A stretch of 50,317 nt of DNA from a virus, in IMG/VR virus record IMGVR_UViG_3300025112_002310, positions 1 to 50,317 of that record. One strand, 5' to 3'. The position numbers and the translations under genes are program-made. Of this stretch, positions 10,028-34,462 are shown piece after piece (position 1 is the stretch's first letter; every line of letters begins with the position of its first letter). A model generated the notes under the pieces. That model worked only from the letters and a program-made list of their open reading frames with translations, did not search any database and had not been told where the DNA came from.

Positions 10028-10354
10028 ATGTATAACTTAGTGTTTCTCCAAAAGGAGAACGATTTAAATAAGGTTCTTAGGAAGTTTAAACGAGATCCTA
10101 AGAGGTGCAGCATCCTGTTTGTGTCCTTGTGGGACAAGTGGTGTGAAAAACTCTTGTCCAAACTAAAGGAGAAATATACTGGGTCTGAAGGAGAGACTCT
10201 TTATATTGTTGATAGTTTAAATATGCCCCATAGCTTTGTTATCTATAACACAAATAAGACTCCTCACTTAATTCAACTTCGTAGAGACCAAACGTTCTCA
10301 GAGGATTACCTTCCCCATGTTTATAAAATGCTTAAACTTAATCAAGTTTCTTAG
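10028..10354 (+). CDS. Thioredoxin-fold-like small protein (108 aa)
   Basis: The arrangement ILFVSLWDKWCEKLLSKLK (residues ~29-47) followed by TLYIVDSLNMPHSFVIYN (~60-77) recalls a thioredoxin strand, WC active-site helix, and cis-proline loop. Only one cysteine of the usual CxxC is present (WCEK), so disulfide reductase activity is unlikely. It starts 1 nt after the previous stop and overlaps the convergent sigma gene by 17 bp. The fold is inferred from pattern only; function unknown. Confidence 0.5.
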   Translation: MYNLVFLQKENDLNKVLRKFKRDPKRCSILFVSLWDKWCEKLLSKLKEKYTGSEGETLYIVDSLNMPHSFVIYNTNKTPHLIQLRRDQTFSEDYLPHVYKMLKLNQVS

Positions 10355-10685
10355 ATTGCATCTCTATAAACTTTTCAATCTTTAGTTTATATTTTTTTTC
10401 TTTAGTATACAAGAGCTTGAGATTATTAACTATGATTGTTGTAAAGTAATTAAAAGCAGTCCCCTTCTTAGGTGTGAAGTTTTTAATGATTTTTAAAATG
10501 AGTGCAAAGCAATCTTGCTTAGCATCGTCAGGATCAATTTTAAAGTTGAATGATCCGATGATATTAGTTATTAGAAGGTCGAACATTTTTACCAACTCAT
10601 CCTCATTTTCTTTTGGATTTTCTTTATAAGCTAAGAGGAGTGCCTCGAACTCCTTATTGTCTATATAATATTTTTTATTTCCCAT
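10338..10685 (-). CDS. Sigma-70 region 2-like late sigma factor (gp55-like)
   Basis: A 115-residue minus-strand protein whose C-terminal two thirds match the sigma region 2 pattern: DDAKQDCFALILKIIKNF, then TPKKGTAFNYFTTIIVNNLK, like the core-binding and -10 recognition helices (EDL-QD-G-L-KA--F-P-KG--F-TYA). Region 4 is absent, as in T4 gp55, the late sigma that reads only a -10 box. A CTATAATA box lies 6 nt before its own ATG, so it may be transcribed leaderless. It probably redirects host RNA polymerase to phage promoters carrying this box. Confidence 0.7.
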   Translation of the reverse strand: MGNKKYYIDNKEFEALLLAYKENPKENEDELVKMFDLLITNIIGSFNFKIDPDDAKQDCFALILKIIKNFTPKKGTAFNYFTTIIVNNLKLLYTKEKKYKLKIEKFIEMQSKKLD

Positions 10686-10698: not shown

Positions 10699-11721
10699 AT
10701 GTTTGATTTAGATAGTATCTATTCTGACCATAAAATTGAACCTGAAAATCCCTTATGTGATGGGTGTTCTATTTTAAGTAAGAATAAACCATGCCATTCG
10801 GTCATGGATTATAAAAGACTTGGACAGTCTGATGTACTGTTTCTGTCTGATTCTCTTAAGAATTCTTATGGAAAAACATTTCCATTTACGAAGCCAGAGT
10901 TTGCTGTACTTAAGGAATCATATAAAGAGAACTTCGCTTGTGCTGCTTCAGTGAAGTGCCCTAGTGTTAAGGAAGCAGATATGTCTCCTGATAATATGAA
11001 CTTATGTCGCGTTCATTTGCAGGCAACAATTGATAAAATTAAACCTAAGCTGATTCTTCCTTGCGGCAACTTAGCTATGAAAATGCTAATTAAGAAGAGC
11101 GGCATTACAGATAAACGAGGTAAATCTTTTGAGTATACAACTGACAGTGGGCATTCTAGTATCGTTGTTCCTATTTTTCACCCTTACTTTGTGGCTAAAG
11201 AGCCTAGACACAGGTTCCTCTTCGAAACGGATATCCGAAACGCGCATGAGAAATATGTACTTGGCAAAACGCACGAAGGAAAGCTCGAATACAAAGTCCT
11301 CACAGAAATCGAAGAGGTGGAAGTACTGGGGAAGATGCTGAAGGATACTGATGAGACTTTAGCTGTTGATATTGAAACGACTGGCCTCAATTTCTTGACA
11401 GATAACATTCAGACTATTGCCTTCTCTTCTCATGAAACCAATTGGGTTATTCCCTTAGATCATAAGGACAGTCCCTTCAAGAAGGGGAGTTGTTTTTATA
11501 AGGGCGTTTGGAGTAACTTAAGAAAGATCCTAGAGAACCCGCGCAGCAAGAAAGTATTCCATAACGCTAAGTTTGATTTGAAGTTCCTAATCAATCATGG
11601 AATCTACACTAAGAATGTGTGGGATACTAAGATCATGCATCACCTTCTAGATGAGAACCTACCTAAGAGTTTGATGGATTTGGTTAAGCTTTACTTTCCG
11701 ACTGAGCTTGAGAGTCTTTAA
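10699..11721 (+). CDS. polA: Split DNA polymerase I, part A: UDG-like domain + 3'-5' exonuclease N-part
   Basis: Residues 1-~180 resemble family-4 uracil-DNA glycosylase. The four Fe-S cysteine positions are kept (C20, C23, C87, C103 with the 15-residue spacing), as are ILPCGNLA and PIFHPYFV, but the GEAPG catalytic loop is replaced by LSDSLKN, so glycosylase activity is doubtful. Residues ~200-340 begin a Pol I proofreading domain with Exo I (D224, E226 in DIETTGL) and Exo II (HNAKFD, D293). The ORF stops at LYFPTELESL before Exo III, which is in the next plus-strand ORF at 12264. The 3' end overlaps the minus-strand lipoprotein gene by 38 bp. Confidence 0.8.
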   Translation: MFDLDSIYSDHKIEPENPLCDGCSILSKNKPCHSVMDYKRLGQSDVLFLSDSLKNSYGKTFPFTKPEFAVLKESYKENFACAASVKCPSVKEADMSPDNMNLCRVHLQATIDKIKPKLILPCGNLAMKMLIKKSGITDKRGKSFEYTTDSGHSSIVVPIFHPYFVAKEPRHRFLFETDIRNAHEKYVLGKTHEGKLEYKVLTEIEEVEVLGKMLKDTDETLAVDIETTGLNFLTDNIQTIAFSSHETNWVIPLDHKDSPFKKGSCFYKGVWSNLRKILENPRSKKVFHNAKFDLKFLINHGIYTKNVWDTKIMHHLLDENLPKSLMDLVKLYFPTELESL

Positions 11722-12229
11722 GTAAAGCTTCTAGTGCAAGAATCCTACTCTCGTTATGCTTCATAATTACATCTTGTTCATCGTCCCTTGCATCAATATC
11801 TGCTTGGGATACGGTGTTATGAATCTGTCCAAACTTCTTAAACCAGTTTCTACCATTCTTTCTGAAGAGTGGAAGGAATACGAAAAGGATTAACCACCAG
11901 TAACCTAATGTTTTAATGAGCCCACCCGTCTCATGTAAAGTAGAAGCGGTGCTGCCCTGAACGGGTCCTGCGCCTGCTACCTGCCCTACGATTGCCGCAG
12001 GGCTTTGAGAGGGGAATATCATCTCTGTAACCATAACCCCTCCCGCTGCCCCTGCTGCAACGGCTGCTGGCTCAGGTATAAAGGCTGCAACAGCACCTCC
12101 TCCAACTGCACCTCCAATAGCGTGTTTGATTGTACTACAGCTAGTTATAAATAACATTAAGCTGATAAGAAGAAGTTTTTTCATTGGTCTCCCGATCTGG
12201 CTTCCGTATGTTCTTGGTCCTGTTGGCAT
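11684..12229 (-). CDS. Lipoprotein with glycine zipper and membrane segment, inserted within polymerase gene
   Basis: Start chosen at 12229, which has a strong AAGGAG site 6 nt upstream; an internal ATG at 12184 (MKKLLLISLMLF) is the alternative. The product has a lipoprotein signal with lipobox ITSC, a Gly/Ala zipper (GGAVGGGAVAAF... VAAGAAGGV), a second hydrophobic segment YWWLILFVFLPLF, and a charged C-terminal helix. This suits an envelope protein of a Gram-negative host, for example lysis or superinfection exclusion; neither is proven. It lies between the two halves of the exonuclease domain on the opposite strand and has its own divergent promoter region. Confidence 0.72.
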   Translation of the reverse strand: MPTGPRTYGSQIGRPMKKLLLISLMLFITSCSTIKHAIGGAVGGGAVAAFIPEPAAVAAGAAGGVMVTEMIFPSQSPAAIVGQVAGAGPVQGSTASTLHETGGLIKTLGYWWLILFVFLPLFRKNGRNWFKKFGQIHNTVSQADIDARDDEQDVIMKHNESRILALEALLKDSQAQSESKA

Positions 12230-12248
12230 AAAAATTCTCCTTCTACGT

Positions 12249-12261
12249 CTATAATATATAG
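12249..12261. promoter_or_regulatory. Near-palindromic TATA box serving two divergent genes
   Basis: CTATAATATATAG reads almost the same on both strands. On the plus strand TATAAT (12250-12255) is 8 nt before the ATG of polymerase part B. On the minus strand it is ~20 nt upstream of the lipoprotein ATG, with an AAGGAG site between. Confidence 0.55.
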
Positions 12262-12263
12262 TA

Positions 12264-12743
12264 ATGCTCACCATAAACAATCCGAATACTTTTGATTGGT
12301 CCAGCATAAGTCTTTCCGATTGTGCGGAAGGAAATGCTATGGATACTTATTTTACCCTTAAGTTATTCGACCTAATCTGTGAGAAATTAGGGGACAGCCC
12401 TATGATGAAGCTCATTGAGCAGGTAATCATGCCCTCCCTTGAAGTATTTTCAGAGATGGAATATGAAGGTCTTGACGTAGATTTAGATACCTTAACCAAA
12501 GTAGGCAGAACTTTAACCTCTAAGAACATGGACGAGGAGGACCTTTTGTACTCATGTAAGGGGGTTCAGAAAACAGACAACCTCTCTTCCAATAATCATC
12601 TTATTGAGGTGCTTTATACACGGGAGGGAGGGATGGAATTATACCCTCCTGATAAGACTGCTAGTGGGAAGCCTTCTGTGTCTGCGCCCACACTTAAATT
12701 ACTTTTAGAACACATAGATGAGGAGCTAAAGAAGCGTGAGTAA
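12264..12743 (+). CDS. polA: Split DNA polymerase I, part B: Exo III + thumb N-part
   Basis: This 159-residue ORF starts where part A stops in the Pol I fold. NAMDTYFTLKL (D27, T31) is the Exo III motif, although the usual motif tyrosine four residues before the Asp is Gly23. Residues ~95-155 match the thumb pattern NLSSNNHLIEVLYTREGG ... KTASGKPSVSAPTLKLLLEH. It has its own TATAAT box and no ribosome site. It ends with an 8-nt overlap (GTGAGTAA) with part C, which is in the +1 frame. Parts A and B would have to associate to form a working exonuclease. Confidence 0.8.
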   Translation: MLTINNPNTFDWSSISLSDCAEGNAMDTYFTLKLFDLICEKLGDSPMMKLIEQVIMPSLEVFSEMEYEGLDVDLDTLTKVGRTLTSKNMDEEDLLYSCKGVQKTDNLSSNNHLIEVLYTREGGMELYPPDKTASGKPSVSAPTLKLLLEHIDEELKKRE

Positions 12744-13851
12744 GTGGCAGCATAGAGATGAAGGTAAAAAGATTAGCAAGTCTGTGGTCTCTTCCAAAAC
12801 TACGGAAGAGTTACTACAGTCTAAGAAATTTTTAAAAGGGCTCCTTGATTTAAGGAAGTCTGAGAAATTAGCTAAGACATATATCCAAGGGACTAAGAAA
12901 GCAATTGAGTATAATGAGAAAGATAAAGTTTTTGTAGACTTTAGATTTGATGGTACTACTACGGGCAGGCTTTCTTGCGCAGCATACACCGCTAAGAAAG
13001 CTATGGGGGTCTCTTTCCACACTCTCCCCAGAGACACAGAGACCAACATCAGAAGCATTTTCAAAGCTCCGAAGGGACAAGCATTCATTACTATTGATTA
13101 TGCCGCTATGGAGCTTCGTGTGCTGTCTCACATAGCTAGGGAGGGGAATATGCAGACCGCATTCAATCAGGGCGCAGATCTCCACACTTACACGGCTCAA
13201 CTGCTGTTCAATAAGAAAAAAGTAACTAAACAAGAACGCCAGATAGCCAAAACGGTATCCTTTCTTATCGTATACGGAGGAGGACCTTTCAATCTCAGTG
13301 AGACAATGGGCATTCCTATGAAACGAGCGGAAGCTATAATAGATAATTATAAAAATGTGTATCCTGGAATCTTTGAGTATATGGAATTTGTTAATGAATA
13401 TATTAAGCGTAATGGGTATGCTTATACTATATTTGGGAGGCGCAGGAATTTGCCTGATGTTTATTCCCGTGATAGATCAGTGGTTAATCGCGCTCTTCGA
13501 CAAGGACTTAACTTTACAATCCAGAGTACAGCGTCTGATATTTTACTCACTTCTCTTTTGGGTATTGCTAAAGCTTTTACTTTGCGCGGCCTTACGGCTC
13601 GCCCAGTAGCAACTGTTCATGATAGTGTAGAAATAATTTGTGAGCAAGAAGAAATTTCTGAGGTACTAAAGATAGTCTATAATGAGATGGTAAACTACCC
13701 CTCAATTAGATCAATTTTTAATATCCATTTTGATGTACCATTAAAAATTGATGCTGAAGTAGGAAGATCTTTTGGGGACGGAGTTTCCGTAGAGTTTAAT
13801 GCTGCAGGAGAGGCGTTAAATATGGACGAAATCTCTACATATTTCAGATGA
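12736..13851 (+). CDS. polA: Split DNA polymerase I, part C: polymerase palm and fingers
   Basis: A 371-residue polymerase core. It shows the TTGRLS thumb-palm motif (residues ~75-80), motif A DYAAMELRVLSH with D121, motif B with R168, K172, F176 and Y180 (equivalent to E. coli R754, K758, F762, Y766), and motif C VHDSVE with H295-D296. All catalytic residues seem present, and Phe at position 762 is the ancestral state. It starts at GTG, 10 nt after a GGAG, overlapping the stop of part B. Coupled re-initiation is more likely than a +1 frameshift, but both are possible. Confidence 0.9.
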   Translation: MSKWQHRDEGKKISKSVVSSKTTEELLQSKKFLKGLLDLRKSEKLAKTYIQGTKKAIEYNEKDKVFVDFRFDGTTTGRLSCAAYTAKKAMGVSFHTLPRDTETNIRSIFKAPKGQAFITIDYAAMELRVLSHIAREGNMQTAFNQGADLHTYTAQLLFNKKKVTKQERQIAKTVSFLIVYGGGPFNLSETMGIPMKRAEAIIDNYKNVYPGIFEYMEFVNEYIKRNGYAYTIFGRRRNLPDVYSRDRSVVNRALRQGLNFTIQSTASDILLTSLLGIAKAFTLRGLTARPVATVHDSVEIICEQEEISEVLKIVYNEMVNYPSIRSIFNIHFDVPLKIDAEVGRSFGDGVSVEFNAAGEALNMDEISTYFR

Positions 13852-22187: not shown

Positions 22188-23333
22188 ATGAGTGATAAAT
22201 TAAAAATACTGGCTGCTCCCGCCAATGAGGGAGGATGTGCATACTATAGAATTATCGCACCGTATAGAAAGCTGGAAGAACTGTATCCTGACCAAGTAGA
22301 GGTGCGCTGGGATAAGAACCCTTTAGGAATAGACGAGAAGACTGGTCGCTGGCAAGAGGGTTGGGACTATGAAAATCTAAAGTGGTGTGATGTTGTTGTT
22401 ACTGGTAACTTGAGCAACTTCGGAGGAAACTACACGGCAAGGATTGTAGGAAAGGCCAAGGAGTTTGATAAGTTTGTCCATTATGATACGGATGACCTAC
22501 TGACAGATCTGTACGAAGGGCACAGGCTTTACGGAGTTTATAAAGAAAAAGGTCTTAGTGAAATCACTAAGTTTATTTATAATAACTCTGATCTAGTTAC
22601 CGTCACCCAGAGGAAGTTTGCAGAAAGGATAAAGCCTTTTTGCCGACACACTTTAGCTGTGATTAAGAACTGTGTGGATTATAACCTGCCTGCCTGGAAT
22701 ATGCAGCGACTAATGACTAAGAAGAATTATTGTCGCTTTGGTTGGGCAGGAGGAATCCACCATGAGCAGGACGTAAAGTACTTTGCAGGTGTCCCTCAAA
22801 TGGTTAATCAGCGAGCAGGGAGAGAGAATGTAAGGTGGGATTTTTATGGGGCACCTCCTCCTAACACCCCAGAAGATGATTGGCAAATAGAGGTTTGGAA
22901 GAACTATAAAAACATTATCATGAGGGGCTTTAAAGGCCAACCAAATTTCACTATTAATTATGCTCTTCCTGCTGACAGGTATGGACAATTCTTTACGAAT
23001 ATGGATATTGCTGTGGCTCCTCTCGAAATGAATCCCTTTAATGATTCTAAGTCGGAGATTAAAGTTGCGGAGTGTGGGAGATATGCCATTCCGTTAGTTG
23101 CTTCAAATGTAGGGTGCTATGACGAGTGGATTGTGAATGGGGAGACTGGCTTTTTGATAGATCCTGATAAGGGAACCAAAGAGTGGGTTAAGATTTTGAC
23201 GAAATTAGCTAAGGATAAAAAGTTGCGAGAAAGGATGGGCCGCAATCTTAAAAAGATAACAGATGAGAATTTTGATATGAATAAAAATGTCAAGGACCGC
23301 TTAGATCTGTACAAAAAATTAATAAATGAGTAG
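22188..23333 (+). CDS. Glycosyltransferase, GT4 family (GT-B fold)
   Basis: A 381-residue protein opening the sugar gene cluster. The N-terminal domain begins LKILAAPANEGGCAYYRI. The C-terminal nucleotide-sugar domain has ECGRYAIPLVASNVGCYDEW and NGETGFLIDP (~285-325), the GT4 signature. The ATG has no good ribosome site (TTTTACC before it), and expression may depend on the upstream hairpin region. Sugar and acceptor unknown. Confidence 0.9.
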   Translation: MSDKLKILAAPANEGGCAYYRIIAPYRKLEELYPDQVEVRWDKNPLGIDEKTGRWQEGWDYENLKWCDVVVTGNLSNFGGNYTARIVGKAKEFDKFVHYDTDDLLTDLYEGHRLYGVYKEKGLSEITKFIYNNSDLVTVTQRKFAERIKPFCRHTLAVIKNCVDYNLPAWNMQRLMTKKNYCRFGWAGGIHHEQDVKYFAGVPQMVNQRAGRENVRWDFYGAPPPNTPEDDWQIEVWKNYKNIIMRGFKGQPNFTINYALPADRYGQFFTNMDIAVAPLEMNPFNDSKSEIKVAECGRYAIPLVASNVGCYDEWIVNGETGFLIDPDKGTKEWVKILTKLAKDKKLRERMGRNLKKITDENFDMNKNVKDRLDLYKKLINE

Positions 23334-24114
23334 TGTTAAGATTTTGAGTGGGTGGTCGAACCCTGGTGGCTCGACGGTACACCACATAGCTCTAACGAAT
23401 TTGTTAAATTCTAAAGGGGTAAATTGTACTTTTTACGGACCTCAGGATTATCATTTAGATAAATGCAAGGGGGAGAAGATTGACAAAATCCTTATTACTC
23501 CTGAGGATATCTTAATATCCCATTTTTTGAATGTACCTAATACTCCAGGTGGGTGGAGACAACATATTCTTAGTTGTCATGAAACCAATTTATTTCCGTT
23601 GTCTGACCTAACCTCAGATCAAATTACCACATATGACACTATCCAGTATGTGAGTGAGTTGCAAAAAGAGTGGCACGGTGTTGAGCATAATTCGGTAATT
23701 ATTCCTCCGATGGTAGAGCACATAAAGTGGAAGGATCCTGAAAACAATAAAGCAGGAGTGATAGGGAGTATTGATTTTCACAAACAACCCCACCTTTCTA
23801 TTCAGGCTGCATTAGATGATGGCTATAAAAAAGTATTTCTTTTTGGTGACATCACAGACTTGCCTTATTTTGATAAAGAGGTCAAGCCCTATGTAGAACG
23901 AGGAGAGGCTGTTCTCATGGGTCATGAGAGCGACCGTAACGCTCTGTACGGGAAGATCTCCTGTGTCTACCACTCCTCCCTTAGAGAGACTTACGGGCTC
24001 GTAGAGGCTGAGTGTAAGCTTGCTGGGATCCCCTTTCGAGGAGCCTCTAACAAACAGCCCATCCTTACAAAAGATGAAATATGGGAGAGGTGGGAAGAAT
24101 GTCTGGATCTGTAA
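23326..24114 (+). CDS. Glycosyltransferase, GT-B like, shortened (262 aa)
   Basis: It begins VKILSGWSNPGGSTVHHIALTN, the usual GT-B opening. The second half has GVIGSIDFHKQP, FLFGDITDLPYF and a YHSSLRETYGLVEAECKLAG segment with the E-x7-E type nucleotide-sugar site. At 262 residues it is shorter than most GT4 enzymes (350-400). It overlaps both neighbours, indicating coupled translation. Confidence 0.8.
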   Translation: MSSVKILSGWSNPGGSTVHHIALTNLLNSKGVNCTFYGPQDYHLDKCKGEKIDKILITPEDILISHFLNVPNTPGGWRQHILSCHETNLFPLSDLTSDQITTYDTIQYVSELQKEWHGVEHNSVIIPPMVEHIKWKDPENNKAGVIGSIDFHKQPHLSIQAALDDGYKKVFLFGDITDLPYFDKEVKPYVERGEAVLMGHESDRNALYGKISCVYHSSLRETYGLVEAECKLAGIPFRGASNKQPILTKDEIWERWEECLDL

Positions 24115-24842
24115 CAGTAATCCTAAATTGCTATAAGAGACCAGAGTATCTGGAAGAGCAAATAAAGGCTATTCGAGCACAAAGTATTCCTCCTGAGAGT
24201 ATATGGTTGTGGGTTAACAGTACGAAGGAGAATAGAAAAACTAAATTTTATAATCTTGGACTAGACAAGGTCTTTAAGTCTGATACAAACTGTAAGTACC
24301 ATGCTAGGTTTGCAATAGGGCTTATCGCTCAAACTGATTATGTTGCTTTTTTTGATGACGATACTATTCCTGGGAAAAAGTGGTTTGAAAATTGCCTAAA
24401 TACAATGGAGGAAACTCCTGGTATTTTAGGTGGGGCTGGTTGCGTCCTTCAAAGCAGGAGTTATGTGCAGCATCGCAGGATGGGTTGGCCTACTCAAAAC
24501 GAGTTTACTGAGCCCGTGGATCTTGTAGGTCACGCATGGTTTATGAGACGAGATGATTTAAATCATATGTGGAGCGAGACTCCCCTTACCTTAGAGAACG
24601 GAGAGGATATACAGTTGGGGTATTTGGCTAAAAAGAACGGAGGGGTCCAATGTTATTGTCCTCCTCATCCTGTTGATAAGCCCGAACTGCATAGCTCTTT
24701 AAAGCCAGAGCAATACGGAAATGATGCTAAAGCTTCCTCGAATGGGGGGTTAATGTCTATCCCTCAATTTTATGAACAGAGAGATCAGTGCATAGCTCAT
24801 GGAATAGCCAACGGCTGGGAAACGGTGTTAGGTGTCAAATGA
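24099..24842 (+). CDS. Glycosyltransferase, GT2-like (GT-A fold)
   Basis: The start is set at the ATG at 24099 (GGGAAGA before it), overlapping the previous gene by 16 nt. VTVILNCYKRPEYLEEQI opens a GT-A fold and DYVAFFDDDTIPG supplies the DxD metal site (~80-92). A second acidic motif, ENGEDIQLGYL, lies near residue 165. It transfers a sugar from a nucleotide donor to an unknown acceptor. Confidence 0.85.
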   Translation: MSGSVTVILNCYKRPEYLEEQIKAIRAQSIPPESIWLWVNSTKENRKTKFYNLGLDKVFKSDTNCKYHARFAIGLIAQTDYVAFFDDDTIPGKKWFENCLNTMEETPGILGGAGCVLQSRSYVQHRRMGWPTQNEFTEPVDLVGHAWFMRRDDLNHMWSETPLTLENGEDIQLGYLAKKNGGVQCYCPPHPVDKPELHSSLKPEQYGNDAKASSNGGLMSIPQFYEQRDQCIAHGIANGWETVLGVK

Positions 24843-25828
24843 TTTTATTAAGCTATGGAACTAGGCCCGAATATATTAAGCTTTTACCTCTTATAAAAGA
24901 GCTAAAAAAAGAAAATTTACCCGTTAAGATAGTTCAGATTGGACAACACACTAGTTTATTAAACGACGATTATGATGATCGGTTACAAGTTTTTAAGAGA
25001 GAAAATAGACTAGATTCGATTGTGACCTCCGTGCTTGCTCATGGGAACCATTTATATAAAGGAATTTCGCATGTGGTAGTTCAAGGAGATACAACAAGTG
25101 CTATGGCAGTAGGCTTAGGAGCTTTTCATAGGGAAATCCCAGTGTACCATATAGAAGCTGGATTGCGGACGGGAGATAAACAGAACCCCTATCCTGAAGA
25201 GGCAAATAGGCGAATTTTATCAGCTATAGCTTCTACTCATTTTTGTCCTACTAAAAAGGATAAAATAAATTTGATAGTAGAGGGGTTTGAAAAAGATAAA
25301 ATTGTAGTTACTGGAAATACAGCAATTGATAATTTGAAGGGAATTAAAAGTGGAAGTAGTCAAGAGATTTTGGTTACGATGCATAGGAGAGAAAACTTAG
25401 ACAGTTTAGATTCTTGGTTTTCTTCTATTGAGGAGTTAGCAGAGAAGTATCCTCAGTACAAGTTTGTATGCCCTGCTCACCCTAATCCCCTAGTCCAGCA
25501 TCACGCGAGGGACATTTTTAAAAAGGTGCGTGTTATTAAACCTTTAGAGCATTTAGAAATGGTCAGACGTATTGCAAAGTGTAAGCTTGTAATCACTGAT
25601 AGCGGAGGAATTCAGGAAGAATGTAGTTGGTTCAAAAAGCTATGTTTTGTTTGTCGAATGGCTACTGAGAGGCCCTCTCAATCAGGAGTTCTCTGTAGAC
25701 ACCCTCACATCCTTGTTGATAATTTTAAATTAAATCATAATCGAGTGATAACACAAACCTGCCCTTTTGGAGATGGAAATGCAGCAAGAAAAATCGCAGA
25801 ACAAATCTGCCAAGACGTTCTCAAGTGA
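24839..25828 (+). CDS. wecB: UDP-N-acetylglucosamine 2-epimerase (WecB-like)
   Basis: The start is the ATGA overlap at 24839. Motifs: SYGTRPEYIKLLPL at the N-terminus, VVQGDTTSAMAVGLGAF (~80-96), HIEAGLRTGD (~104-113), PEEANRRILSAIA (~119-131), TMHRREN (~181-187), and ITDSGGIQEEC (~260-270). These match the non-hydrolysing epimerase making UDP-ManNAc. It points to an aminosugar in the phage-directed glycan. At 329 aa it is slightly short. Confidence 0.92.
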   Translation: MILLSYGTRPEYIKLLPLIKELKKENLPVKIVQIGQHTSLLNDDYDDRLQVFKRENRLDSIVTSVLAHGNHLYKGISHVVVQGDTTSAMAVGLGAFHREIPVYHIEAGLRTGDKQNPYPEEANRRILSAIASTHFCPTKKDKINLIVEGFEKDKIVVTGNTAIDNLKGIKSGSSQEILVTMHRRENLDSLDSWFSSIEELAEKYPQYKFVCPAHPNPLVQHHARDIFKKVRVIKPLEHLEMVRRIAKCKLVITDSGGIQEECSWFKKLCFVCRMATERPSQSGVLCRHPHILVDNFKLNHNRVITQTCPFGDGNAARKIAEQICQDVLK

Positions 25829-26609
25829 GTTTGATAAGCTATTTCAGAAGCTGAAGGATAATGAGCCCTTTGCTTTTAGCCGATTTTCAGATGGAGAGGT
25901 TTACATCCTTAAAGGAGAGAAGTTAGTTCTAGCTCCCGACCATTACATTACAGGGGAAAGGTCAGGAGGAGGGGTTTATACTAAAGAGGAGCATAAAAGC
26001 TTCGACCCCGAGAAGGACTCGTTCTTCCAGGAAAAACTTATAGAAGCTTTACAGCATAGGCAGCACAACTACTTTAAAGGGTTAACTGGTGTAGCTGATG
26101 AGGATATTGCAGGGAAGGATGCTTTTCAGTTTCAGTTAGATCTATGTGGGGAAGGAGACGAAGACCACCTTACTTTTTCTAACCTGTTTATTAACAATAA
26201 TTACCCCCGATTCATGCAGGAGATGCTTCCTGTAATTTGTGAAAAGGAAATAGTTGTTATAGCTAATGAAGCTGTTAACTTGGATGAGTTACCTCTAAAA
26301 GTTATTAAGCGTTTCAATGTTGGAAGCAATTGTATCATTAATGATTACCATTTAGTTGAAGAGATTAAGAACTGGATTGCCTCAAACCATATTGATGATA
26401 CGATATTCCTATTCTCCGCTTCTACCTTGAGTAATTACATTATTCATGAATGTTTTAAAGAGCATAGTAATAATACTTATTTAGATATAGGTAGTTGTTT
26501 AAATCCGTGGATGGGCTTGGAAGGATGGAAACACAGCCGAGCATACTTACAGCATTGGATATTAAAAATGCCTAACAAGTATGGAACCCAAGTTGACACA
26601 TGGATTTAG
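25779..26609 (+). CDS. GT-D-like glycosyltransferase (DUF1792-type), tentative
   Basis: The ATG at 25779 is preceded by GGAG at 6 nt; TTG/ATG codons further 5' are alternatives. FAFSRFSDGEVYILKGEK (about 26-43) resembles the R-F-x-DGE motif of the GT-D glycosyltransferase fold, and GSNCIINDYHLVEEI could be a second core strand. It overlaps wecB by 50 nt. The family call rests mainly on the DGE motif and context. Confidence 0.55.
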   Translation: MQQEKSQNKSAKTFSSEFDKLFQKLKDNEPFAFSRFSDGEVYILKGEKLVLAPDHYITGERSGGGVYTKEEHKSFDPEKDSFFQEKLIEALQHRQHNYFKGLTGVADEDIAGKDAFQFQLDLCGEGDEDHLTFSNLFINNNYPRFMQEMLPVICEKEIVVIANEAVNLDELPLKVIKRFNVGSNCIINDYHLVEEIKNWIASNHIDDTIFLFSASTLSNYIIHECFKEHSNNTYLDIGSCLNPWMGLEGWKHSRAYLQHWILKMPNKYGTQVDTWI

Positions 26610-26968
26610 TTTTAATAACGCCCGACTACTACGAGTTTGTTAGGGAACTGCGACTGCATCCTGAAACTAAGAGTGGATTCTTAGAGGAGGCAACCATTAC
26701 ACCTGAGCAGCAAATCAAATATATGGAAAGGCATAGGTATAATTATTATATCTGTCTATTATATGGTAGCCCTGTGGGGTATGTGGGGGTCATAAATAGT
26801 GATATACGGTTCTGCACAGACCCCGATTTTCAGGGTACGGGAGTGGGGTCATTTATGCTCTCGAAAATTAAAAAACTATACCCTGAAGCCACAGGACGGA
26901 TTCTTAAGGACAATATTGGGAGCCAGAGAGTGTTCGATAAGTGTGGCATAGACTATAAGATTATATGA
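26600..26968 (+). CDS. GNAT-family N-acetyltransferase
   Basis: A 122-residue protein with the acetyl-CoA loop DPDFQGTGVGSFMLSKI (~74-90) and a late NIGSQRVFDKCG motif (~107-118) typical of GNAT enzymes. Lying between wecB and the DegT-like aminotransferase, it may acylate an aminosugar made by them; the substrate is inferred. Confidence 0.85.
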   Translation: MDLVLITPDYYEFVRELRLHPETKSGFLEEATITPEQQIKYMERHRYNYYICLLYGSPVGYVGVINSDIRFCTDPDFQGTGVGSFMLSKIKKLYPEATGRILKDNIGSQRVFDKCGIDYKII

Positions 26969-27585
26969 AGAGAATCGTCCATAATCCGTACAAAATCGTA
27001 AAGATGTTTGAGGAAGAGGTAGCTGAATACACAGGGGCTCCTTACGCTGTCTCTGTAGATAGTTGTACAAATGCTATCTTTCTGTGCTGTAAGTATTTGA
27101 ATGTAACACAAGTTATTATTCCAAAGCACACTTACTTGTCTGTACCAATGTCTATCATCCACTCTGGAGCGGAGGTAGTCTTTGAGGATAGAGATTGGTC
27201 AGGTATGTACAAGCTTAAACCCTACCCTATATTTGATGCTGCTAAACGGTTTACCTCCGATATGTATGTTCCAGGCTCTTATATGTGCCTCTCGTTTCAC
27301 ATTAAAAAACTTCTTCCACTAGGCAAAGGTGGCATCATTCTTACGGACAATAAGTATGCTGCTGAGTGGTTTAGAAAAGCACGATACGAGGGTAGGAGCG
27401 AGAAGAACTATCATGAGGATGATATTGATATGTTAGGGTGGAATATGTATATGACCCCGCAACAGGCGTCTCATGGGTTAGCTCTCATGCAGAATTACCC
27501 AGAGCATGTAGAAGATCTCGGAGAGAATAATGGCTACCGAGATCTAACCACTAACACAGTATTTAAGGACTGCAAAGTATTATGA
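26965..27585 (+). CDS. Short DegT/DnrJ/EryC1-type sugar aminotransferase
   Basis: It has PLP-fold features of DegT sugar aminotransferases: EYTGAPYAVSVDSCTNAIFL near the N-terminus, PKHTYLSVP, IFDAAKRF (PLP Asp) and SFHIKKLLPLGKGG with the Schiff-base lysine (~113-126). It is only 206 residues against about 370 usually, lacking most of the C-terminal domain. Catalytic positions are kept, so it may be a trimmed active enzyme, or a decayed one. It overlaps both neighbours by 4 nt. Confidence 0.82.
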   Translation: MKRIVHNPYKIVKMFEEEVAEYTGAPYAVSVDSCTNAIFLCCKYLNVTQVIIPKHTYLSVPMSIIHSGAEVVFEDRDWSGMYKLKPYPIFDAAKRFTSDMYVPGSYMCLSFHIKKLLPLGKGGIILTDNKYAAEWFRKARYEGRSEKNYHEDDIDMLGWNMYMTPQQASHGLALMQNYPEHVEDLGENNGYRDLTTNTVFKDCKVL

Positions 27586-28478
27586 TTCACATAGTAACAC
27601 TACATTTTGGAACACAGGCTTGGTTTGATATTCAGAAAAGATATATCACTAAGTACACTACGGGCGATTATAAAGTATGGATCGGCACATATAGAAACGA
27701 AATCCCTGAAGACTTTGATTTGCCTGACAACTGGCAGCACATGGATTTAGATAAAGACTACCCTTCAGATGGTATTAATGAGCATTATGCTCAGACAGAG
27801 TTTATGTACTCTAATTATTTAAGGGATGAGATGAAGGATGACGATGTGCTTATTTTTATGGATAGTGATGCATTTCCAGTCACGGACAAATGGACACAGA
27901 AGATTCAAAATCTTTTTGAGAGTGGATCAGAGGACGGTCCTTGCGATGTATTAGGGATAGCTCAGCCAGAGAATAAAGGAATAGCGGCAACTGACGATTA
28001 CGATCCATACCCTGACCTATGTTTTTTCGCAACCACTAAAAAGGTTTGGGAAGATAATAATTTAGAGTGGGGCCTATTCTTACCCAAACACCAGAACCCT
28101 GGCTTCGGAATGCTAGACCGTATTAAAGCTGCAGACCTTGCATTAATGTATATTCAAAGAACAAATAGCTTCGAAGCTAACAGTGTCATGTTTGGTGTAT
28201 ATGGTGATATGATTTACCACCAGCATTGTGGTTCAAGAGCGATTATAGGACGACCCCTGGCAACTAACAAAGCCAAAGCCATGAATAAAAGACAATGCTA
28301 TACAGGTCGTGACCTTTCTTACCGACTGTCCCTAGGTAATTTCTTTGAAGTAGAGTTCGAAGACGTATGCCCTGATATCATTGAGACGAATACGGCTATC
28401 TTTGATATAATTTATGAAAGACTGGTAAAAGATGCAGACGCTAATTTTGTACCTCGTTATTTCTTAGGAAGACCATGA
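27582..28478 (+). CDS. Putative GT-A glycosyltransferase (298 aa)
   Basis: The N-terminus IHIVTLHFGTQAWFDIQ and the VLIFMDSDAFPVTDKW motif (~87-102) give a GT-A fold with a DSD metal site. CDVLGIAQPEN and the later YHQHCGSRA look like acceptor-side loops. No exact family recognised; context supports sugar transfer. Confidence 0.65.
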   Translation: MIHIVTLHFGTQAWFDIQKRYITKYTTGDYKVWIGTYRNEIPEDFDLPDNWQHMDLDKDYPSDGINEHYAQTEFMYSNYLRDEMKDDDVLIFMDSDAFPVTDKWTQKIQNLFESGSEDGPCDVLGIAQPENKGIAATDDYDPYPDLCFFATTKKVWEDNNLEWGLFLPKHQNPGFGMLDRIKAADLALMYIQRTNSFEANSVMFGVYGDMIYHQHCGSRAIIGRPLATNKAKAMNKRQCYTGRDLSYRLSLGNFFEVEFEDVCPDIIETNTAIFDIIYERLVKDADANFVPRYFLGRP

Positions 28479-29206
28479 TTAAGGAACTTGCTATCATAAC
28501 AAACACTCACTCTAAAAATAGTGATTTATGGGAAGCGTACATTGGACAGATACAGAAGTACATGGATGAACCTTTGTACTTTTTTACAGATCAACATCCT
28601 CCCTTTGATACTTCGGGGGTGGAGTCTCTGCTATATGACGCAACTTTCAACTTTAGAACACAGTTTCTACAGGGTCTAGTTCATGTTAATCATGAGTTTT
28701 GTTTGTACATGAATGAGGATTATCTTTTATATGACAACCCAGATAAGAAAAAATTGTCTGAGTACATTCAAGTTCTACGAGACAACCCCCAACTCTCTTT
28801 TATTAGATTAGGAAAGGGCATAGATCACTTTAACTATCCAGTGACAAAGACGCTCAATTATTTGGATGTTAGGAACCCCTATTTTTATTCACAAACTGCG
28901 ACTCTTTGGAAAACAAATCATCTAAAAGCAGTTCACGTTCATGGGCCTGATTTGCACATAGGAGGGGAGGATATGTCCCAACAGTTTGAAGTTGCTGCCC
29001 ATAAAACCTGTTATGATTTGGGAATTCAGGGAATGTATCATTATGACGGTGAATCCAAGCGTGGAGAACATCACTATGATTCAAATGTATTCCCGTATAC
29101 TGCCTCTGCCTTAGTTAAGGGTAAGTGGTGTTCGGAGTACAAAAAAGAACTTCTTCCTATTTTTGAAGAGTACGGAATTGATAAAGACAGTAGAGAGTGG
29201 ACATAA
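28475..29206 (+). CDS. Putative glycosyltransferase-like protein (243 aa)
   Basis: It opens with KELAIITNTHSKNSDLWEAY and carries CLYMNEDYLLYDNPDK (~79-94), a plausible metal-binding acidic loop in a GT-A-like fold, then SFIRLGKGIDHF. It shares this style with phage and bacterial proteins annotated as capsular glycosyltransferases. Assignment is by pattern and neighbours only. Confidence 0.5.
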   Translation: MIKELAIITNTHSKNSDLWEAYIGQIQKYMDEPLYFFTDQHPPFDTSGVESLLYDATFNFRTQFLQGLVHVNHEFCLYMNEDYLLYDNPDKKKLSEYIQVLRDNPQLSFIRLGKGIDHFNYPVTKTLNYLDVRNPYFYSQTATLWKTNHLKAVHVHGPDLHIGGEDMSQQFEVAAHKTCYDLGIQGMYHYDGESKRGEHHYDSNVFPYTASALVKGKWCSEYKKELLPIFEEYGIDKDSREWT

Positions 29207-29931
29207 TGAAACTGATACAAAATAATAAAGATAATATCACGGGGTTCTCTGTGGTAGAGGGTACTGATTTTGGAGTTGACGAAGACAATAAAAAGGCTAT
29301 GGGATACCAGCACCATGACGCATTATGGTGGGGTGGGGTAGACAAGGTTGAAGCTTCTAGACCTAAGACGATGGATTTCGACCAGACTATGAACTGGTTT
29401 AAATCCATGTTTGCTTATGTCGCTAGACAAACTTTAGATGTTTACAACCCAGACTCATTGTTAGAGTTAGGTTGCGGTAGTGGTTTAATGTCTAGGATTT
29501 TTAAGCGTTACAAACCCGACATGGTTGTGGCTACTGTGGACGCAAATCAAGTGGTGAAAGAGAAGAGTCCTTATGTTGGAGAGAATCATTTCCTAGCTAG
29601 ATCTGATAAGAAATTAGATATTACAGACGAGGACGGCAAGAGAAAGTTCTTTGATGTGGTTATATCTCTAGAACATTTCGAGCACATCCCCCCAGAAACT
29701 TGTGATACTATGATGGAGAACATTAGAGATCATACGCAGCCAGGAGCACACCTCATATTTACTGCTGCTGAATGGGAGTATGAGGACGATCAGAACCATA
29801 TACATTGTAATGCACAGACGGAGGAGTACTGGCAGGATTATGTGGTCAAGTTTGGGTTTGAGGTTATTGAGAATCCTTTTACAATCGGTAGAGCGGGAGA
29901 CACCTGGGAAGTTTTCGCTAGGAGAGTGTAA
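29206..29931 (+). CDS. SAM-dependent methyltransferase
   Basis: The start is the ATG at 29206 (TAATG overlap with the previous stop). LLELGCGSGLMSRIF (~89-103) is SAM motif I, VVATVDANQ is the acidic strand and FFDVVISLEHFEHIPPE is the post-core motif typical of class I methyltransferases. It probably methylates a sugar or glycan of the pathway; substrate unknown. Confidence 0.85.
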   Translation: MKLIQNNKDNITGFSVVEGTDFGVDEDNKKAMGYQHHDALWWGGVDKVEASRPKTMDFDQTMNWFKSMFAYVARQTLDVYNPDSLLELGCGSGLMSRIFKRYKPDMVVATVDANQVVKEKSPYVGENHFLARSDKKLDITDEDGKRKFFDVVISLEHFEHIPPETCDTMMENIRDHTQPGAHLIFTAAEWEYEDDQNHIHCNAQTEEYWQDYVVKFGFEVIENPFTIGRAGDTWEVFARRV

Positions 29932-30902
29932 TGTTTGTTTGTACGGATCTAAGAGCAGAGGTGCCCGACACTAATGCCCACTCTTTTGGTTTAGAAAAGC
30001 ATCATGATGAGGAGTCTTTTGATAACTTGTATTACGGTTATGATGCAACCGTTCTAGCGTACAGATCAGGAAATAGACAAGTGATGATAAATCAGTGGGC
30101 ACCTACTGAATTTGCTCAAGTTAAAGATCATCACGGATTAACTCCATTAGAGCATAGCGCATCCTCAACTGAAGTTTATTCAATCTGTCCATATACAGTG
30201 GATTGGTTAAATAAAGTTGATTCTCCAAAGTACAAGTATATCTTTTACCCCTTCAATAAAAAAGATATACCTTTCGCAACAGAGAAGGAATATGATGTAT
30301 GTTACTTTGGGGGGATTCATTCTGTTATGCATCAAGAGTGTATGGCGGTTATGCGTCTTTTTAAGTATTGCTACATGACTATGGATCACGGCATTGGCCC
30401 ACTAACTCAAGCTTATCTTCCTATGGCTACTCACATTAATCTCTCCCATAGAGAGAAGATCGTTCAAGTTGGGAAATGTAAGGTTTCTGTTTGTTATCAT
30501 ATCGTACCCTTATACGAGTTTCACATAAAAAATATAAAGAGCTATCCAGAGTGGGAAAAGAACGAAGCATTTTCTCGTCTCGATCAGGCTATCCTGCCTC
30601 AATTCAAATCCAGAATGCATGAAGCTGCTATGGCAAGGACGCTTAATTTAGTCTATAGAGATCCGTGGGGAATCTCAGAGGACTATTACACTCCTGACGT
30701 TGATTTTGTTTACTTTGATTCTAATGAAGAGTTAGAGGAGAAACTACAGCACATTCTAAATAACTGGGAAGACTACGAGAAAATGATTGAAAACGCCTAT
30801 AATAAAGCGTTGAACTATACTACTGATAGAATGTTCGATGTCATCAAAAAAGGAAAATTATGGAAACCAAAGAATGCAGATCGTGCGGATCTGATAGCTT
30901 AA
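29931..30902 (+). CDS. Putative GT-B glycosyltransferase-like protein (323 aa)
   Basis: The YDVCYFGGIHSVMHQECM segment (~123-140) and the C-terminal pattern SRMHEAAMARTLNLVYRDPWG ... FVYFDSNEELEEKLQHIL (separate stretches) resemble the C-terminal half of glycosyltransferases with a terminal helix. It overlaps the C-methyltransferase by 43 nt. The GT call is tentative. Confidence 0.5.
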   Translation: MFVCTDLRAEVPDTNAHSFGLEKHHDEESFDNLYYGYDATVLAYRSGNRQVMINQWAPTEFAQVKDHHGLTPLEHSASSTEVYSICPYTVDWLNKVDSPKYKYIFYPFNKKDIPFATEKEYDVCYFGGIHSVMHQECMAVMRLFKYCYMTMDHGIGPLTQAYLPMATHINLSHREKIVQVGKCKVSVCYHIVPLYEFHIKNIKSYPEWEKNEAFSRLDQAILPQFKSRMHEAAMARTLNLVYRDPWGISEDYYTPDVDFVYFDSNEELEEKLQHILNNWEDYEKMIENAYNKALNYTTDRMFDVIKKGKLWKPKNADRADLIA

Positions 30903-32077
30903 TCTCTATCTTAGACTTAGGCGATCAACCTTGGTGTAACGATCTAATTACTGCTAGGTACAGCAGTGATGAAACAAAGGTATATCCTCTGCATTTAGTT
31001 TCTTGCAGAGACTGCGATCTACTTCAATTAGATTATACGGTCCCTAAAGAGGTTATGTTTACAAAACACGGGTATTTGTCAGGTATGACTCAAACTCTCA
31101 CAGACCATTTCTACGAAATTGCAAAAGAGAACGTAGAGCAGTTCAGCGTAGATTCCAAGGATTTGGTAGTAGACATTGGGGGAAATGACGGCACCCAGTT
31201 GTTCCAGTACATAAAGCTTGGCATCACCAATGTAGCCAATGTAGAGTCTGCAAAGAATATTGCTGAGATCTCATCCCAAAGAGGTATTTTCACTATTAAC
31301 CGATTCTTTAATGAGGAGACCGTTAAGAAGTCTTTTGCGGAAGGCGCAGCCAAAATTATTAATGCTGCGGGGGTTTTCTTTCATTTAGAGGAGTTGCATA
31401 GTGTGATTAAAGGTGTGAAGTATCTCCTCGCAGATGATGGTGTGTTTACTGTACAATGTATGTATGCGGGTGAGTTGGTCAAAAATGAAAGCTTTGATAT
31501 GATCTATCATGAGCATCTCTGCTACTACACCCTTAAGAGCTTAATGTCTCTTTTGCAACCCTATGGTTTGAATGTGTTTGATGCTTATCACTCCCCCATC
31601 CACAGTGGCTCTTTGATTGTTAAGGTGTGTCATGGTAAAAAGTACCCCTCCACTCCTCGAATGATGGAGACTTTGGAGATGGACAGTGAATTTAATTTAA
31701 GTAGCTTTCTTCGTTTTGGTGATAAGATGAGAAAAAAACGTGGACAACTGAAAGAGCGTCTGGAAAAGCTAAAGGAGAAGGGAAAAACCGTGTGGGCTTA
31801 CGGGGCTCCTGCCAAGGGGAATACGCTTTTATGTTATGAAGGAATCGACTCCACTTTAGTAGACCGCGCCGTGGAGATCAATGAGTTAAAAATAGGTAAG
31901 TTACTGCCTGTCTCTAACATTCCTATCCACCGTGAAGATTCATCGGAGTATCCTGATTATTATTTGCTCCTTTCCCATAATTTTGAGGAAGAGATTTTGG
32001 AAAGAAATAAAGATTTATTAGATAAGGGAGTTAAGTTTATTATTCCTTTTCCTGAAGTGCATGAGGTAAGTGCATGA
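30860..32077 (+). CDS. NDP-hexose C-methyltransferase-like protein
   Basis: A 405-residue three-domain protein. The N-terminal zinc module has CRSCGS and CRDCDLLQLDY. The SAM domain has VVDIGGNDGTQLF (~96-108) and IYHEHLCYYTL (~213-223), and the C-terminal Rossmann-like domain has VWAYGAPAKGNTLL (~307-320). This order is that of TylCIII/NovU-type enzymes that add a methyl branch to 4-keto sugars. The AAAGGAAAATT site precedes ATG. Confidence 0.9.
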   Translation: METKECRSCGSDSLISILDLGDQPWCNDLITARYSSDETKVYPLHLVSCRDCDLLQLDYTVPKEVMFTKHGYLSGMTQTLTDHFYEIAKENVEQFSVDSKDLVVDIGGNDGTQLFQYIKLGITNVANVESAKNIAEISSQRGIFTINRFFNEETVKKSFAEGAAKIINAAGVFFHLEELHSVIKGVKYLLADDGVFTVQCMYAGELVKNESFDMIYHEHLCYYTLKSLMSLLQPYGLNVFDAYHSPIHSGSLIVKVCHGKKYPSTPRMMETLEMDSEFNLSSFLRFGDKMRKKRGQLKERLEKLKEKGKTVWAYGAPAKGNTLLCYEGIDSTLVDRAVEINELKIGKLLPVSNIPIHREDSSEYPDYYLLLSHNFEEEILERNKDLLDKGVKFIIPFPEVHEVSA

Positions 32078-33015
32078 ATGTTTTAGTTACAGGAGCCACA
32101 GGATTTCTAGGAAGAGTCTTAGTAAAGAAGTTGCGCTCTTTAGATATGAAGGTTTTTGAGTGTAATACGAAAAACGCTAACTTATTAAACTACAAGAACT
32201 TAGAAGTATTTGACCATGATACTGATGTTAAGTTTGATATGATTTTTCACCTTGCTGCTAATACTAAGGCGGGGGATTGGTGTGTGTATAATTCGGGAAC
32301 CCAATGGATTACCAACCAGCTAATTAATACTAACATTTTAAAGTTCTGGGCAGAGAGGCATCCCTTCGCTAAGTTGGTAGCTATTGGAACCAGTTGTAGT
32401 TATGATCCTGATTTGCCTTTGCGCGAGGATCAGTACGAAGAGGGCTCGCCCGAAGCTAACCTGTATTATTATGCCCACACTAAGAGAATGCTTTTGACGG
32501 GCCTGAAAGCCTTGCATAAGCAGTATCACGCTGACTGGCTGTATGTTGTGCCTTCTACACTTTACGGACCAGGGTACGATAGGAGCGACAATCATTTCAT
32601 TTTTGATCTCGTCAGAAAGATCTATAAAGGAAAGTACGAAGGTGAGGAGGTAGAGTTGTGGGGTAATGGCGAACAGAAGCGCGAATTGATCCACGTTAAC
32701 GATTTCGTAGAACTGCTGATGAAGGTTCTTTATAGGAAGAATGAAGTTATAAATATAGGAAGAGGGGAGGAGTTACCTATTTCGGTTTATGCTAAAGGAA
32801 TATCTAACATCTTAAACTACGATGCTACTCAAATAGTCTATAATACTAACAAGTTCGTCGGTGTTAAGTCTAAGTGTCTCGATACGACTAAACTTAAAAC
32901 CTATGTTCCTGATTTTAAATACACTCCATTAGAGGAAGGACTCAAAGAATTAATTGAATGGGAGGATCAACAATATGGAAAGAAAATATTTACCAACGCT
33001 GTCGGAATTGATTGA
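32074..33015 (+). CDS. NAD-dependent epimerase/dehydratase (extended SDR)
   Basis: VLVTGATGFLGRVLV supplies the GxxGxxG dinucleotide site. FHLAANTKAGDW follows, and YYYAHTKRM gives the YxxxK catalytic pair (~129-137), with PSTLYGPG after. RELIHVNDFVELLM is a sugar-epimerase feature. It most resembles GDP-fucose-synthase-type and related 4-keto-sugar epimerases/reductases. Confidence 0.9.
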   Translation: MNVLVTGATGFLGRVLVKKLRSLDMKVFECNTKNANLLNYKNLEVFDHDTDVKFDMIFHLAANTKAGDWCVYNSGTQWITNQLINTNILKFWAERHPFAKLVAIGTSCSYDPDLPLREDQYEEGSPEANLYYYAHTKRMLLTGLKALHKQYHADWLYVVPSTLYGPGYDRSDNHFIFDLVRKIYKGKYEGEEVELWGNGEQKRELIHVNDFVELLMKVLYRKNEVINIGRGEELPISVYAKGISNILNYDATQIVYNTNKFVGVKSKCLDTTKLKTYVPDFKYTPLEEGLKELIEWEDQQYGKKIFTNAVGID

Positions 33016-33358
33016 TAGGCTGTCTATTGCACAGCTAAAAGAGGTATTCATTCCTGAACACAAAGAGGAATATGCTGAAGAGATTAAAGATATTATGCAT
33101 GATATATCCTCCTGTGGTCTTGATGGAGAATTGGTTAGAGCTATAGTGGTTCTTGCTCAAATGAATTTACACATTTGGCACAATGAATCTAATTACAGGA
33201 ACGGAATAAAAGATGGAAACAACCTAGAGCTTACGCACGGCATTAATGGAATTAGAAACACAGCTAAGAATAAGGTGCAGGAGAAGTTTGGGGGTAGGAA
33301 GGATTACAAGATCGACTGTCTAGCAGCAGACTTTAAGGACTGGGAGGTTAGCTGGTGA
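32975..33358 (+). CDS. Conserved-looking hypothetical protein (127 aa)
   Basis: The ATG at 32975 has a good GGGAGGA site 8 nt upstream, preferred over a TTG seven codons earlier. It has a PTLSELIDRLSIAQLKEVFI helix and AQMNLHIWHNESNYRNG (~74-90) with possible metal or acidic contacts. I have seen similar small proteins in sugar clusters but cannot name a function. Confidence 0.7.
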   Translation: MERKYLPTLSELIDRLSIAQLKEVFIPEHKEEYAEEIKDIMHDISSCGLDGELVRAIVVLAQMNLHIWHNESNYRNGIKDGNNLELTHGINGIRNTAKNKVQEKFGGRKDYKIDCLAADFKDWEVSW

Positions 33359-34461: not shown

Positions 34462-34462
34462 T

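Follow-up and report, generated by a model that had tools for sequence, protein, structure and literature searches.

How does a phage DNA polymerase work when its gene is broken into three open reading frames (ORFs) and one of the breaks runs through the proofreading domain? The question is raised by a stretch of 50,317 nucleotides of viral DNA (IMG/VR record IMGVR_UViG_3300025112_002310, positions 1 to 50,317; the whole stretch is referred to as the window), in which three plus-strand ORFs, here called parts A, B and C, together make up one family-A DNA polymerase, with a lipoprotein gene lying between A and B. The three products are best explained as non-covalently assembling subunits of a single replicative enzyme, a reading to which a probability of about 0.82 was given on the basis of the sequence data. 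The first-pass annotation had left two outcomes, namely that the parts reassemble or that proofreading is lost. Reassembly came out as the likelier because the parts are under purifying selection and are co-linear, and because no other polymerase was detected, whereas the loss of proofreading is less likely, the catalytic carboxylates being invariant and the ratio of non-synonymous to synonymous substitutions (dN/dS) not exceeding ~0.1 for either A or B. The parts, their motifs and the insert are located as follows.

10699-11721, plus strand: part A, 340 amino acids, with a domain resembling family-4 uracil-DNA glycosylase (UDG) and most of the 3'-5' exonuclease domain
10834-11259, plus strand: UDG-like domain of A, residues ~46-187, from Pfam UDG and from AlphaFold2 (AF2) with Foldseek
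11368-11376, plus strand: Exo I in A, D224-x-E226 (DIETTGL), invariant in 51 sequences
11563-11577, plus strand: Exo II in A, N289 to D293; D293 invariant and N289 nearly so in 51 sequences
11684-12184, minus strand: lipoprotein cargo gene, 166 amino acids, in ORF 11684-12307; its final 38 nucleotides are antisense to the end of A
11722-12263, no strand: insert between the stop of A and the start of B, 542 nucleotides, missing from 54 of 101 distinct relatives
12264-12743, plus strand: part B, 159 amino acids, with the Exo III helix and the first thumb section
12330-12344, plus strand: Exo III in B, G23-N-A-M-D27; Gly at the position of Klenow Tyr497, Asp at that of Asp501
12736-13851, plus strand: part C, 371 amino acids, GTG start, with the remaining thumb, the palm and the fingers
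13096-13119, plus strand: polymerase motif A in C, DYAAMELR, with invariant D121
13249-13275, plus strand: polymerase motif B in C, K172 to Y180, invariant
13618-13623, plus strand: polymerase motif C in C, H295-D296, invariant

The ORF positions, including that of the minus-strand ORF, agree with those first annotated, and motif and Klenow mapping confirmed that Exo I and Exo II belong to A, Exo III to B, and palm and fingers to C. Part A matched Pfam UDG (28 bits) and DNA_pol_A_exo1 (positions 3-131 of 173), part C matched DNA_pol_A with 259 bits (E=1e-76) and PolA structures in the PDB at E~4e-40, and the profile of B matched Klenow residues 484-615 (E=1.1e-5). PHROG 17 (phage DNA polymerase) was matched co-linearly by A (482-785), B (797-930) and C (926-1243). 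At the A/B joint, residue 327 of A equals Klenow 459 and residue 10 of B equals 484, with 22 bridging residues compared to 24 in Klenow. At the B/C joint, residue 145 of B equals 615 and residue 19 of C equals 610, leaving ~37 extra residues within the thumb. In an alignment with five intact phage enzymes (MW202455, OP947159, MW202777, Vibrio phage D505 and Lysinibacillus phage LysYB1; L241-L245), both breaks fall in length-variable loops and no core residues are lost. These enzymes are co-linear with A+B+C, but consist of a single chain and lack the ~37-45 residues by which the thumb joint is lengthened here. The earlier impression that little of the fold is missing was thus borne out by the Klenow mapping, the alignment and the co-linear PHROG 17 match. 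A correspondence of the B/C break to the thioredoxin-binding position of T7 DNA polymerase was rejected, since the Klenow mapping puts the break after PSxSxxTL (~615), past the H1 region and hence not at the T7 insertion point.

The exonuclease carboxylates D224, E226 and D293 of A and D27 of B are invariant in 51 sequences, D121, K172, Y180, H295 and D296 of C are likewise invariant, and the carboxylates of all three exonuclease motifs and the three polymerase motifs are conserved without change across 45-51 sequences. Gly23 of Exo III lies exactly at the Klenow Tyr497 position and is Gly in every split member aligned, unlike the aligned intact relatives (L241-L245 included), which have Tyr. 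The annotated replacement of Tyr by Gly was therefore correct as to the residue, but its interpretation as damage in this genome was rejected, Gly being found across the clade. The change concerns how strong the exonuclease is and not membership of family A, for which a single polypeptide, though usual, is not defining either. The same residue could mean that the parts assemble while proofreading is lost, A and B being kept for structure (thumb, UDG-like scaffold) around an inactive exonuclease. Such a loss would fit the break that separates Exo II from Exo III, and also the end of A (residues 311-340), which reached an AF2 confidence of only ~50-55 when A was modelled alone. However, invariant carboxylates would be unexpected for a dead site, and the model of A alone (predicted local distance difference test, pLDDT, 81.5) still shows the five strands of the exonuclease fold in full, so that B contributes no more than the Exo III helix. 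Foldseek matched this model to 4zby (UDG family 4), 1kln and the exonuclease of the apicoplast polymerase apPol. A purely structural role of A and B is considered unlikely. Proofreading probably survives in the assembled enzyme, with an exonuclease possibly weak or lost from the Tyr-to-Gly change.

For the age of the split, relatives were collected from IMG/VR and distinct junction contexts were counted. None of the 101 distinct A/B junctions is fused (54 are without and 47 with an insert), and 96 of 97 distinct B/C junctions are split. The single fused case (L405:6277-7123) has B and C in one ORF and differs from L409 by a single base at the joint; it is either a re-fusion or a sequencing error. 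The split persists in L440, in which identity is down to 43% for A, 32% for B and 44% for C. Relatives at ~36% identity and below are single ORFs, and the phage record collection held nothing closer than 36% identity for C. Where dS is unsaturated, dN/dS is 0.03-0.11 for A, 0-0.07 for B and 0.01-0.08 for C, which indicates strong purifying selection on all three parts, B being as constrained as C. Exactly one PolA was found in each of 12 larger relatives (48-131 kb).

Two further explanations meet their evidence here. Three ORFs in place of the single one of relatives, and one domain shared between A and B, might suggest that A, B or both are in decay and that C acts alone, a possibility already raised at first pass. 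For the clade, decay is refuted by the substitution pattern, both A and B having dN/dS values well under 1; the split has been kept over very deep divergence, and frameshifts are confined to single contigs (L011/L257). Decay is accordingly given a very small probability. The metagenomic origin of the DNA would also allow an assembly error at 11.7-12.3 kb. The layout is, however, identical in four contigs of four metagenomes (L001-L004, identity ≥99.7%), and homologous cargo occupies the site in more distant relatives; these independent contigs bring the probability of such an error close to nil. As judged from these comparisons, the split arose long ago and has become fixed in a large, deep clade of uncultured marine phages. 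One phage contig of the clade, L320 (QCKN01000003.1, 130,604 bases), was found inside the Prochlorococcus single-cell genome AG-409-P03 and provides a host lead.

According to the first-pass annotation, the lipoprotein gene splits the proofreading domain. This claim had to be dropped: the split predates the insert and is a fixed trait of the clade, since 54 of 101 junctions are insert-free and others carry unrelated cargo. The lipoprotein gene is not the cause of the split because insert-free relatives are still split, with A and B overlapping as TAATG. Its likely start is 12184 (MKKLLLISLMLFITSC, with a lipobox) or 12229 (with a Shine-Dalgarno sequence). Homologues are found at the A/B site in L005, L013, L018 and others, and an 83% identical gene lies at a second genomic site in a late-looking operon (L466:1492-1974 and L467:1498-1980). 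In these two 130-kb records it stands within a run of capsid-targeting-like genes, and the A/B joint holds other cargo.

Inserts at the A/B joint range from 184 to 2287 nucleotides. The cargo classes comprise the lipoprotein, short minus-strand basic proteins, a plus-strand coiled-coil-like protein of 62-63 amino acids, a membrane protein of 91 amino acids, a 2-oxoglutarate-oxygenase-like protein and a glycosyltransferase-like protein, all names except that of the lipoprotein being assigned by inspection only. On a quick tree of 65 A+B+C sets, insert presence changed at least 10 times (7 changes forced by well-supported branches) and cargo class 17 times, the outgroup side being without insert. 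The insert-free layout is probably ancestral. Inserts of several hundred bases also occur at the B/C joint, although rarely (L156/L317, L410). From this pattern, the A/B joint is read as a gene-insertion hotspot at which unrelated genes are repeatedly gained and lost without wrecking the enzyme. The N-termini of short basic minus-strand cargo proteins, e.g. MNDKDYELIGESIWDTYR and MNSYERIYNLLTEA, resemble capsid-targeting sequences ending in a prohead-protease-like LxE site. Such proteins occur in the A/B inserts of L006, L007, L010, L011, L024, L037, L041, L091 and L202, and also in L466 and L467; they are probably internal head proteins, encoded at a locus of variable content.

How the separate cistrons might be expressed was deduced from signals at the joints. 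In insert-free relatives, the stop of A and the start of B overlap as TAATG or TGATG. A Shine-Dalgarno sequence for B is present in the tail of A in 29/35 of these loci, mostly 7-8 nucleotides from the AUG, and one for C within B in 33/35, which makes re-initiation on a single mRNA likely. Plus-strand cargo retains the Shine-Dalgarno sequence in the tail of A (6/6), and none of 23 loci with minus-strand cargo has one before B. B and C overlap by 1, 4, 5, 8 or 23 nucleotides, and the frame of C with respect to B varies accordingly; this agrees with re-initiation rather than with a conserved frameshift. In the window, three signals are placed as follows.

12250-12255, plus strand: TATAAT, a -10-like box and candidate leaderless promoter of B, 8 nucleotides upstream of its ATG
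12250-12261, minus strand: late-promoter-like element CTATATATTATA of the CTATATA class for the lipoprotein gene, near the ATG of B
12721-12725, plus strand: AGGAG, Shine-Dalgarno sequence of C inside B, 10 nucleotides upstream of the GTG

The same junctions bear on the idea that one joined product arises from the parts, be it through RNA splicing, through a split intein or through programmed frameshifting. Introns and split inteins are indeed known in phage polymerase genes (PMC10580990, PMC6892783). A gene interrupted by a group I intron was ruled out: no Rfam intron was matched in the whole window, and a stop codon separates A from B even in insert-free relatives. A gene fractured by a split intein was likewise ruled out, the end of A and the start of B lying within a few residues of homologous sequence, with no extra residues at either terminus and no room for intein halves. 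Frameshifting is disfavoured by the varying B/C frames. Joining of the parts by any of these routes is thus very improbable, and separate subunits remain the preferred reading.

On the minus strand, CTATATA lies two bases from the ATG of B in 26/27 loci with minus-strand cargo (near-copies not collapsed), in 0/6 with plus-strand cargo and in 0/35 insert-free loci; its background in the coding sequence of A, B and C is 0.034 per kb per strand. In minus-strand-cargo loci, the plus-strand reading of the element is TATAAT or one change away from it, ending 6-8 nucleotides upstream of the ATG. T4 late promoters lack a -35 element, their TATA box lying about one turn ahead of the start (PMC2988020). 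Because of this T4-like late TATA box and of a weak match to a late sigma factor beside A, the lipoprotein gene is inferred to be a late gene, back to back with an early, possibly leaderless promoter of B. The divergent promoter region annotated earlier for the lipoprotein gene was recovered at the level of sequence, and in this genome B does seem to be served by a separate promoter, with a -10-like box and no Shine-Dalgarno sequence. Within the window, TATAATA is found 4-7 nucleotides upstream of seven ATGs (6501, 9619, 10685 minus, 12264, 37536, 46370 and 48741), with 8 occurrences within 25 nucleotides of starts compared to 0.37 expected, and CTATATA is found 15-20 nucleotides upstream of 20543, 37406 minus and 48645 minus. 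Two promoter-like classes can thus be told apart in the window, TATAATA at 4-7 nucleotides (leaderless-like) and CTATATA at 15-20 nucleotides (late-like) before the ATG.

Several points weigh against this picture. The Tyr of Exo III is Gly throughout the split members, so the exonuclease could be weak. Modelling of B alone was poor (pLDDT 67, predicted template modelling score 0.37, best PDB match not below E=0.07), which fits an obligate subunit without proving it. Neither PolB nor PolC was found in the 12 records of 48-131 kb, but these are metagenomic fragments. The tree of 65 sets has support from the Shimodaira-Hasegawa-like approximate likelihood ratio test (SH-aLRT) only. The promoter motifs were spotted by eye and their statistics computed post hoc on the same window, and the -10-like box of B may be a mere by-product of the near-palindromic late element.

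With assembling subunits as the preferred reading, the following course of events is proposed. In the insert-free layout, A, B and C would form a translationally coupled operon by means of the TAATG and GTG/ATG overlaps with internal Shine-Dalgarno sequences. The A/B joint would accept plus-strand genes, which join the coupled series, or late genes on the minus strand that bring a promoter of their own, and these genes would insert, move and leave. In the present genome, a late lipoprotein gene would occupy the joint with its promoter element adjoining the start codon of B. This AT-rich near-palindromic element would also supply the -10 box of B, and B together with the coupled C would be made from their own, possibly leaderless transcript. 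The Asp of Exo III would then be supplied by B to an exonuclease site which otherwise lies in A.

The UDG-like domain of A shows the family-4 UDG fold (4zby, E=3.6e-8) and its cysteines C20, C23, C87 and C103 are invariant in 51 sequences; we infer that they ligate an Fe-S cluster. A GEAPG-type active-site motif is missing, with an LSDSL-type sequence where an intact relative has GEAPGEQE. For this reason, A was not classed as an active glycosylase, and the domain (10699-11260) is probably structural.

Two neighbouring genes accompany the polymerase. The plus-strand gene at 10028-10354, just upstream of A, encodes a protein of 108 amino acids and was present in 67/67 loci tested. Its profile weakly matched thioredoxin-like 2.1 (5nyk, E=0.0026), and the protein has no CxxC pair. 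Some family members match Pfam thioredoxins at E~0.01, and an hhalign comparison of the family with E. coli TrxA was co-linear but not significant. The product is possibly a redox-dead thioredoxin-fold partner of the polymerase. By extension, the replicase might work only as a complex of four or more chains, in which this protein joins A, B and C and clamps the re-cut thumb at the ~37-45 residues added at the B/C break, an arrangement we hold to be doubtful; the thioredoxin clamp of T7 DNA polymerase is host-made, whereas this one would be phage-encoded. The minus-strand gene at 10338-10685 weakly matched the late sigma factor phrog_234 (E=2.4e-4). It was found by tblastn in 67/67 loci, and the phrog_234 profile matched only 2/12 larger records. 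This gene and A start back to back, and their shared gap of 13 bp holds CTATAATAAGTAT. A sliding clamp was searched with the PF02916 profile without a match, but the controls gave none either. At 22188-35632 the window contains a long series of genes which, by their look, probably encode glycosyltransferases, epimerases and methyltransferases.

Split replication enzymes are known from other phages. In the T4-related Aeromonas phages 44RR and 25, gene 43 for a family-B polymerase is split into 43A and 43B, and the split gp43 parts of phage 25 co-purify and are polymerase-active (PMC2988022, citing Petrov et al. 2010). These systems share with ours a replicative phage polymerase in separate cistrons, the gp43 spacer being untranslated DNA or a homing endonuclease gene. 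Our enzyme differs in belonging to family A and in having three parts instead of two, its cargo is not an endonuclease and swaps among unrelated genes, and its first break separates Exo II from Exo III, so the likeness is an analogy of layout and not of membership. NrdA of Aeromonas phage Aeh1 is also an essential enzyme which still works in two chains, but it is a ribonucleotide reductase, and what splits it is mobE, a gene for a homing endonuclease (PMC2988022). Together, split gp43 and split NrdA show that an assembly of this kind can occur. Closer in family and habitat are the marine OM43 phages MEP401/MEP402 and relatives, whose family-A polymerase lies in two ORFs with a small ORF between the parts, conserved in most of a phage group, and for which the authors suspect an intron (PMC10580990). 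There, ORF 1 carries the exonuclease domain together with the N-terminal part of the polymerase, and its C-terminal part is in the second ORF, whereas our enzyme comes in three parts and has a break inside the exonuclease domain. An intein-bearing split PolB has already been reported (PMC6892783). Among open-licence papers, no report was found that describes a family-A enzyme in three parts, a fixed break separating Exo II from Exo III, or cargo exchange with a change of expression mode at such a break.

The locus would thus represent a natural three-chain family-A polymerase whose proofreading site is necessarily built from two chains and which is stably inherited by a large clade of marine phages. 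It opens to experiment the question of how such a domain copes with being severed after Exo II and before Exo III, and of what makes phages retain fragmented enzymes. The joint of A and B would further serve as a natural experiment on subunit balance, the same gene pair being expressed by translational coupling or, after insertion, apparently from a separate promoter.

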